64,000 nucleotides of DNA from Hydrogenibacillus sp. (GTDB taxonomy: Bacteria; Bacillota; Bacilli; Thermicanales; DSM-22653). Positions 15,274 through 19,661 of this stretch are shown piece by piece (position 1 is the stretch's first letter; each line of letters starts with the position of its first letter). The stretch is from the NCBI GenBank assembly GCA_014896255.1, contig JADBKT010000027.1, positions 1-64,000 of the forward strand, in the 5' to 3' direction. The notes beneath the pieces were generated by a model. It was not told where the DNA came from. It saw only the letters and a list, made by a program, of their open reading frames with translations, and searched no databases. The translations under genes were made by a program, and so were the position numbers.

Positions 15274-16005
15274 ATGATGAAGCCGATGAAAAAGAAACGT
15301 TTGTCGCTCGATTTGTTGCGCGCCCAGTCGGCGCCGCCGGCGGTGCATCCGGCCAACATCTTCGTGGACGTCATCGACAAAGTCAAGGACACCATCGTGG
15401 CCATCGAAACCGACCGCGCGCGGGCCTTCGGGCCTTTCGCCCCGTTCTTTTTTTCGTTTTTCGCCATCGATGAAGAAGAAGACTTCCCGCCGGGCAAAAG
15501 CTTCGGCTCCGGCTTCGTGATCCATCCGCGCGGCTATGTGCTCACCAACCAGCACATCGTCGACGGCGCGGCCGAAATTCGCGTCCGCCAAGGCGACTTT
15601 ACCCGGCCGGCGCGCGTCGTCTGGCAAGACAAGATGCGCGACTTGGCCGTGCTCAAAATCAACGCGCCGATGCTGTTCAAGCCCGCCGTCCTGGGCAGTT
15701 CGAAAAAAGCGCGCGTCGGCGAATGGGTGATCGCCATCGGCAATCCCCTAGGTCTGGAGAACACCGTCACCGTCGGCGTCATCTCGGCCAAAAACCGAGC
15801 GCTGAAGACGGCCCAGCATCTCTACGAGGACGTCATCCAGACGGACGCGGCGATCAACCCGGGCAACAGCGGCGGCCCGCTGTTCAATCTGTACGGCGAA
15901 GTGATCGGCATGAACGCGGCGATCGTCCGCGATTCACAAAGCATCGGCTTCGCCATCGCCATCGACGGCATCAAGCCGCGCATCGCCGCTTACCTCCCGC
16001 GTTAG
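15274..16005 (+). CDS. Trypsin-like serine protease (HtrA-like, no PDZ domain)
   Basis: 243 residues of an S1C protease domain only. The triad is visible: His94 in TNQHIVDG, Asp123 in RDLAVLKI and Ser199 in PGNSGGPL. The N-terminus is basic (MKPMKKKR) with no signal peptide or transmembrane helix, and no PDZ domain follows, unlike DegP/HtrA. It may be cytosolic, as proposed for the B. subtilis YyxA class (that one has a membrane anchor), so location is uncertain. ATG at 15274 follows GAGGTGGGGG. Its last 72 bases overlap the converging Hpt gene. Confidence 0.88.
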   Translation: MMKPMKKKRLSLDLLRAQSAPPAVHPANIFVDVIDKVKDTIVAIETDRARAFGPFAPFFFSFFAIDEEEDFPPGKSFGSGFVIHPRGYVLTNQHIVDGAAEIRVRQGDFTRPARVVWQDKMRDLAVLKINAPMLFKPAVLGSSKKARVGEWVIAIGNPLGLENTVTVGVISAKNRALKTAQHLYEDVIQTDAAINPGNSGGPLFNLYGEVIGMNAAIVRDSQSIGFAIAIDGIKPRIAAYLPR

Positions 16006-18375: not shown

Positions 18376-18869
18376 ATCAGGAGCACTATAAGCCAGATTC
18401 TGTCCTCCCGTACTGCAAACGGGTGCCCAGCCCTCGTACAGGAGGCGTAGCCATCTTTCTATCGGCCGCCTGAGTGCGCTGGAGCGACCCGGTCGACCGA
18501 TCCCTCCGCCGATTCATTTCTCCTTGGAGGGTTCCCCTACCATGATTTGGGTTTCTCGCTTGCGGGGTTTACCGCGTTCCACCTCTTCCGTCGCCGGAAG
18601 AGCTCGTCTCTGTGGCACTTTCAGGCTACTGGGAACTCCGGGAGTTCCGTTCACCGCCGTCGACGAACCCGGCTCCCGGACCGCCTCTTTCGGACGCCTC
18701 ATGCGCCGAAGCGCGCCTCGAAGCGGTACGGGCCGCTCGCCGCCCCGGCTTGCGCCGGGCGCAAACACTCCGAGCATCGCAGCTCGGGCGAGTCTGGACT
18801 TTCCTCTACACCGCGCGGCTCGCGCCAAAAGCGCGAGCAGGCGATGCAGCGGCTACGCGTGCCCCTGAT
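18376..18869 (-). ncRNA. rnpB: RNase P RNA (type B)
   Basis: Catalytic RNA that matures tRNA 5' ends. On the minus strand the conserved 5' block GAGGAAAGTCCAGACTCGCC, the central GAAAGTGCCACAGAGACGAG, the block GTGGAACGCGGTAAACCCC followed by AGCGAGAAACCC, then GTTTGCAGTACG and the 3' GACAGAATCTGGCTTAT all occur in order. These central blocks match the Bacillus (type B) class. The ends are set by the P1 helix: ATCAGGGGCAC pairs with GTGCTCCTGAT with one G-U pair. At about 494 nt it is longer than the usual 400, from expanded GC-rich helices. Confidence 0.95.
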
Positions 18870-18908: not shown

Positions 18909-19000
18909 TGGTGGAGGAGGTGGGATTCGAACCCACGTGGGCCGCATGGACCCCAACGGTTTTCAAGACCGCCCCGTTATGACCACTTCGGTACTCCTCC
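18909..19000 (-). tRNA. tRNA-Ser(UGA)
   Basis: Class II tRNA with long variable arm. Acceptor GGAGGAG pairs perfectly with CTCCTCC, the T-arm GTGGG-TTCGAAT-CCCAC is normal, and the anticodon loop CTTGAAA carries TGA. CCA is encoded. It is intact and is the last tRNA before rnpB, 39 bases away. Confidence 0.92.
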
Positions 19001-19099
19001 GCGTGCGACCGAACGCCGTCACCGCCCCCTTGACCTCCAAGCGGCCGGAATCACCGACGCCTCTGCGCCCCGTTCGCTGCCGCGCCACCGCGTCATGCG

Positions 19100-19174
19100 T
19101 GGTGGGCCCTGCAGGATTCGAACCTGCGACCAATCGGTTATGAGCCCTGCTCTATCCTGTTGAGCTACATTGGA
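19100..19174 (-). pseudogene. Degenerate tRNA-Met(CAU)-like gene
   Basis: The 3' half is a normal tRNA: T-arm GCAGG-TTCGAAT-CCTGC, acceptor AGGGCCC, discriminator A and encoded CCA; the loop CTCATAA gives anticodon CAT. The 5' acceptor strand, however, reads TCCAATG where GGGCCCT would be needed, so it cannot pair. The anticodon stem has only GGG on the 5' side, two bases short, and its 3' side CCGAT does not match. Either a dead gene or a sequence problem. Confidence 0.7.
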
Positions 19175-19179
19175 ACGCA

Positions 19180-19254
19180 TGGAGGGAGCACCCGGATTCG
19201 GAACCGGGATCGAGGTTTTGGTGACCTCTGCCTTTACCGCTTGGCTATGCCCCC
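19180..19254 (-). pseudogene. Degenerate tRNA-like gene, anticodon CCA (nearest tRNA-Trp)
   Basis: Acceptor GGGGGCA pairs with TGCTCCC (one G-U) and CCA is encoded. The anticodon arm GAGGT-CACCAAA-ACCTC puts CCA at the anticodon, but position 33, almost always U, is A. The T-loop TTCCGAAT has eight bases rather than seven, the D-loop carries an extra A, and the discriminator is U where Trp has G. These four departures make normal function unlikely. Confidence 0.6.
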
Positions 19255-19360
19255 CACCTCGCGCATCCATGATAAAGCCGTGAGATGCGAACCGCTCGGG
19301 TAAGATATGGCTCGCCCCGGAACGGGCGAAGCGATTGCGGCGCCGCGCCGCACGGGTATA

Positions 19361-19435
19361 TGGCAGGGGCGGTAGGAATCGAACCCGCGCCTGCGGTTTT
19401 GAGACCGCCGTTCTTACTCATTGAACTACGCCCCT
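19361..19435 (-). pseudogene. Degenerate tRNA-Trp-like gene with six-base anticodon loop
   Basis: The body matches tRNA-Trp closely: acceptor AGGGGCG/CGCCCCT, discriminator G, encoded CCA. The anticodon arm is GCGGT-CTCAAA-ACCGC, one base short; restoring a C gives the Trp loop CTCCAAA. The D-loop is two bases longer than the usual AATGGTA, with the GG pair interrupted, and the T-stem has a C-A mismatch. Read literally the anticodon is undefined. Confidence 0.62.
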
Positions 19436-19442
19436 CAAGGCC

Positions 19443-19531
19443 TGGTGGAGTGAGAGGGACTTAACCCTCGCCGGGCAACGCCCACTAACGGTTTAGCAAA
19501 CCGTCCCCTTCGGCCTCTTGGGTATCACTCC
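19443..19531 (-). tRNA. tRNA-Ser(GCU), T-loop one base short
   Basis: Class II tRNA with long variable arm. Acceptor GGAGTGA/TCACTCC and anticodon loop TTGCTAA (anticodon GCT) are fine, and CCA is encoded. The T-arm reads GAGGG-TTAAGT-CCCTC, a six-base loop lacking the invariant C56 of the common TTCAAGT. The G19-C56 contact would be lost. It may be functional but impaired, or on the way to a pseudogene. Confidence 0.65.
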
Positions 19532-19585
19532 ACGGCACCAAAGACGTAAAAAAGCCCCGCTTGAGGCTTCGGCAGATGATGAAAT

Positions 19586-19661
19586 TGGTGGAGCCGACCG
19601 GGATCGAACCGGCGACCTCGTGAATGCCATTCACGCGCTCTCCCAGCTGAGCTACGGCCCC
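19586..19661 (-). tRNA. tRNA-Ala(GGC)
   Basis: Acceptor GGGGCCG pairs with CGGCTCC (one G-U), the anticodon arm CGTGA-ATGGCAT-TCACG carries GGC, the T-arm GCCGG-TTCGATC-CCGGT is normal, and CCA is encoded. Intact. First tRNA of the array, about 20 bases after a strong promoter. Confidence 0.95.

Follow-up and report, generated by a model that had tools for sequence, protein, structure and literature searches.

Why would a tRNA array next to the RNase P RNA gene carry structure-breaking changes in most of its members? The window, the whole stretch of 64,000 nucleotides analysed here, is part of the 115,603-bp contig C20 in a Hydrogenibacillus draft genome of 1.92 Mb and 35 contigs. Six tRNA-like loci lie on its minus strand between positions 18909 and 19661, and a class B rnpB gene adjoins them (Table 1). 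A preliminary description of the sequence had counted two intact genes, tRNA-Ala(GGC) and tRNA-Ser(UGA), and four broken ones, and had placed rnpB beside the array. ARAGORN, the CM scores and the Rfam match to class B RNase P RNA agree with that count and that placement. The four broken loci score 54, 47.7, 39.9 and 30.1 bits, compared to about 60 bits for their intact neighbors. ARAGORN calls Ser(UGA), a “Trp”, one locus without an assignable anticodon, Ser(GCU) and Ala(GGC); it does not detect the locus near 19100. Decay of genes made redundant by other copies, repurposed RNAs and a local assembly fault had all been offered as explanations. Our sequence comparisons make it very probable that faulty assembly of a draft genome from a mixed community produced the broken genes, whose lesions are real as sequence but would not reflect biology.

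Table 1 Features of the tRNA array and its surroundings in the window.
Feature	Coordinates	Strand	Remarks
tRNA-Ala(GGC)	19586..19661	-	Intact, outside the patch; ARAGORN and Rfam CM, 60.5 bits
tRNA-Ser(GCU)	19443..19531	-	T-loop damaged; alignment with five relatives
tRNA-Trp	19361..19435	-	D-loop and anticodon-loop lesions; alignment with five relatives
tRNA-Cys	19180..19254	-	Identity from alignment with five relatives and from position and order there
tRNA-Arg(UCU) 5′ part	19147..19176	-	Edge of the foreign patch; 2-nt insertion; aligned to Arg(UCU) genes
CAU tRNA 3′ part	19100..19146	-	Fused to the Arg part; alignment with CAU tRNAs of relatives
tRNA-Ser(UGA)	18909..19000	-	Intact, outside the patch; ARAGORN and Rfam CM, 59.5 bits
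rnpB, class B RNase P RNA	18384..18827	-	Intact control; Rfam, 196.9 bits
Foreign indel-rich patch	19146..19484	-	Contains part of Ser(GCU), Trp, the Trp–Cys spacer, Cys and the Arg(UCU) 5′ part

We compared the locus with orthologous arrays in five relatives, G001 to G005. The nearest of these is Hydrogenibacillus schlegelii MA48 (G001); G003 is Ca. Carbobacillus altaicus AL32, and G002 belongs to another genus of the same family, probably Brockia. All five arrays are intact and follow the order Ala(GGC)–Ser(GCU)–(Met)–Trp–Cys–Arg(UCU)–CAU–Ser(UGA), with extra His and Asp genes in G005. H. schlegelii MA48 and the other family members share the gene order seen here and have canonical tRNAs throughout, and rnpB follows the array in all four family members aligned. 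The elongator Met gene is present in the H. schlegelii and Carbobacillus arrays but absent here. Its absence between Ser(GCU) and Trp agrees with the pattern in G002 and G004.

Alignment with these arrays reveals the identity of the broken loci. The locus at 19100–19176, described earlier as a Met-type gene, is a chimera: it opens with ~30 nt from the start of tRNA-Arg(UCU), interrupted by a 2-nt insertion, and ends with the 3′ part of the CAU tRNA that occupies the next position in the array. The switch occurs at the anticodon stem. The Arg(UCU)/CAU fusion explains why the acceptor does not pair and the anticodon stem is short, as had been reported for this locus; the single Met-type identity does not hold. 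The CAU part is probably Ile2, the one of the three CAU types left by elimination. The locus at 19180–19254 is called Trp by ARAGORN and had been described as a Trp-type gene, with A33, an eight-base T-loop and U73 as lesions. Its counterpart in the arrays of relatives is tRNA-Cys, for which U73 is normal; A33 and the T-loop of 8 nt, in a shifted T-arm, do hold. The anticodon loop reads CACC where CTGC is expected, and the D-loop contains one extra A. A Cys tRNA reassigned to tryptophan codons, with a Cys body and a CCA-like anticodon, was considered and rejected, since A33 and the 8-nt T-loop break the structure. Reassignment is also ruled out by the normal form of the same gene in relatives and by the location of the change within the foreign patch described below. 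The second Trp-type locus is a true tRNA-Trp gene. Its six-base anticodon loop results from a one-base deletion, as described, and alignment with the five relatives adds two D-loop insertions to the list of lesions. In tRNA-Ser(GCU) the damage to the T-loop is wider than the loss of C56 first reported: the loop reads TTAAGT, compared to TTCGAAT in relatives. The 5′ half of this gene is clean.

All lesions are confined to one stretch, 19146–19484, and this stretch matches the array of a different genus. Over its 339 bp, the Ser–Trp and Trp–Cys spacers included, 304 positions are identical between the stretch and G002 and 21 are substituted, with 17 gap events; identity outside gaps is 93.5%. 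The flanking spacers are only 62% (19002–19099) and 72% (19532–19585) identical to G002, and the Ala gene is 83% identical. The Arg part at 19147–19176 has no substitutions at all relative to G002. The match to G002 ends at both edges of the patch. On the left, the edge is the Arg/CAU fusion point, next to 43 bp that match H. schlegelii exactly (19104–19146). On the right, the edge enters a 55-bp exact match to Ca. Carbobacillus altaicus (19480–19534), within which the clean half of Ser(GCU) lies. Spacers and genes in the patch have a similar density of indels. Substitutions and indels together amount to a load of ~11% relative to G002, which is the expectation for raw R9-type nanopore reads. 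Sharing of sequence does not by itself predict damage, as undamaged tRNAs of this assembly, such as Ala(GGC) with 51 bp, also have long exact matches to relatives.

Do the lesions mark genes made redundant by other copies, as the preliminary description proposed? Trp, Cys, Ser(GCU) and Arg(UCU) are each encoded by exactly one gene in the two ARAGORN tRNA sets of relatives, those of H. schlegelii (50 calls, one of them spurious) and G002 (48 calls). A search of the assembly with the intact H. schlegelii array returned no intact second copy, only the damaged copies and unrelated tRNAs, in an assembly that misses many tRNA genes. The corresponding codons, UGG, UGC/UGU, AGC/AGU and AGA, are in use in the genes of the window. 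Real lesions in a complete assembly would leave the cell unable to translate UGG or Cys codons. The single-copy status of these tRNAs and the use of their codons make a strong but not final argument against decay by redundancy, not final because about two thirds of the tRNA genes of the relatives are missing from the assembly. We find 16 tRNA CM matches in the whole genome, compared to 50–52 in relatives, and the assembly lacks the large tRNA clusters that the relatives have.

This shortfall means that unseen copies are possible, and with them a biological origin of the patch, in which part of a G002-like array was taken up by recombination and then degenerated into pseudogenes while working copies reside in unassembled tRNA clusters. 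A patch that matches another genus, spacers too, would fit such an event. However, these tRNAs are single-copy in relatives and sit there in the orthologous array, and the indels are about as dense in spacers as in genes. In addition, like indel clusters occur in hydrogenase genes, and a segment identical to Carbobacillus occurs on another contig (see below). We therefore consider uptake and decay very unlikely. Still less probable in our judgment is a genuine recent replacement of part of the array between genera, with the imports rapidly lost and unassembled intact copies sustaining translation.

The indels on their own could also suggest sequencing error throughout a low-quality assembly, as tRNA indels are found in several genes on three contigs. 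The coding sequences speak against this. Twenty-four coding alignments of reciprocal best matches pair the window with H. schlegelii; they cover 7,296 aligned residues at a mean identity of 74.7% and contain no frameshift. The conserved core of rnpB is free of lesions relative to four relatives, and the tmRNA on contig C31 is clean and specifies the same tag peptide as in H. schlegelii. The error is thus local, restricted to short patches, and contig-wide error is rejected as having almost no chance of being correct. The preliminary description was right to doubt random error along the contig as the cause of the cluster, with 17 gap events in 339 bp against no frameshift in the 24 coding alignments and a clean rnpB core. 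A 16S rRNA family search found none in either of two genomes, and the same search missed 16S in 5 of 14 control genomes. The window also encodes, at 15274–16005, a short HtrA-type protease of 243 amino acids. Its match to the Do-family profile covers the first half alone, so that PDZ domains appear to be lacking; the H. schlegelii ortholog is of similar length.

Similar patches are present elsewhere in the assembly. In a tRNA cluster on contig C27 (L001 ~960–1380), Arg(CCU) lacks three bases, fMet has three additional bases and Lys(CUU) has an insertion near its start. The remainder of Lys, the spacer and Gly(GCC), ~150 bp in total, match Ca. Carbobacillus altaicus, which belongs to a different genus, at 100% identity, in contrast to 68% DNA identity for the sole protein gene compared with Carbobacillus. 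On contig C5 (L005 930–1004), tRNA-Gln(CUG) has an 8-base T-loop, with one extra T relative to H. schlegelii and G002. A NiFe hydrogenase operon on contig C13 (~92480–94310; L085 1987–3811) has 91% DNA identity to H. schlegelii, and clusters of short deletions at L085 1987–2169 and 3678–3811 frameshift its small- and large-subunit genes, although gaps are nearly absent from most of the ~5.4 kb alignment. An 87-bp run, the longest without substitutions relative to H. schlegelii, overlaps the first cluster. These clusters are probably assembly patches of the same kind, and such a patch would hide the hydrogenase from annotation. Lesions are thus found in short segments with sharp edges beside clean genes, and foreign or shared sequence lies at or inside these segments. 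The patches therefore sit where sequence is common to relatives from the same communities, in tRNAs as well as in protein genes. Together with the foreign, indel-rich and sharp-edged patch in the array, these observations support the local assembly fault that the preliminary description listed among its options.

The patches on other contigs also bear on the proposal that the broken loci are repurposed tRNA-like RNAs, processed next to rnpB and serving a non-translational role. The one point in its favor, proximity to rnpB, is shared by relatives whose tRNAs are intact. By alignment, the altered structures are conserved in none of the five related arrays, all of which are canonical, and one of the loci is a half-and-half fusion at the edge of the patch. 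The spacers are foreign, the indels resemble read errors, and similar patches occur far from rnpB, including in the protein genes of the hydrogenase. Of all the explanations weighed here, we regard repurposing as the least likely.

How could an assembly artefact of this form have arisen? We propose that short-read contigs ended at tRNA sequences shared with co-resident species, and that the gap at 19146–19484 was bridged by sequence rich in errors, most likely from nanopore reads of a G002-like organism that were raw or had been merged into a thin consensus. Bridging of this kind would account for the indels of Ser(GCU), Trp and Cys, and the Arg(UCU)/CAU fusion would stem from sequences wrongly joined within a tRNA gene. 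Based on genus, divergence and gene content, the genome is probably the metagenome-assembled genome (MAG) Bu13 (BioProject PRJNA663466), which represents a second species of Hydrogenibacillus at 70.4% AAI to MA48 and comes from a coal-fire vent community that also contains H. schlegelii, Ca. Carbobacillus and, as MAG Bu66, Brockia lithotrophica (PMC10215811). That study combined Illumina and MinION R9.4 data in a hybrid metaSPAdes and npScarf assembly, with Flye and Pilon in parallel, and its stated traits for Bu13 are an aerobic CO dehydrogenase, RuBisCO and one hydrogenase group only (PMC10215811). CoxL of the aerobic CO dehydrogenase and RuBisCO are both present in the genome studied here, matching Bu13. 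It has two hydrogenases, one intact and the other the frameshifted copy on C13, and this frameshifting could be the reason why only one group is listed.

In npScarf, contigs are joined by long reads, and the consensus of the reads serves as a temporary filling of the gaps until repetitive contigs take its place (PMC5321748). The two steps would yield both kinds of patch seen here, error-rich and foreign ones. Errors of npScarf-type hybrid gap filling would likewise appear as short error-rich or foreign patches at shared sequences in an otherwise clean assembly, and we infer for the present record that nanopore gap filling was the route and a tool of this type responsible. Our literature search turned up nothing specific on damaged tRNAs in metagenome assemblies.

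If the broken loci are an assembly artefact, they have no biological significance, and their value is as a caution on hybrid metagenome assemblies. Drafts of this type can hold short, foreign, indel-rich patches at sequences that are shared across a community, such as tRNA arrays and conserved operons. Such patches mimic pseudo-tRNAs, hybrid tRNAs, altered anticodons and frameshifted genes, yet leave completeness and contamination scores looking good. Before unusual tRNAs are claimed from such genomes, the loci should be searched for matches to co-resident species that extend into the spacers.
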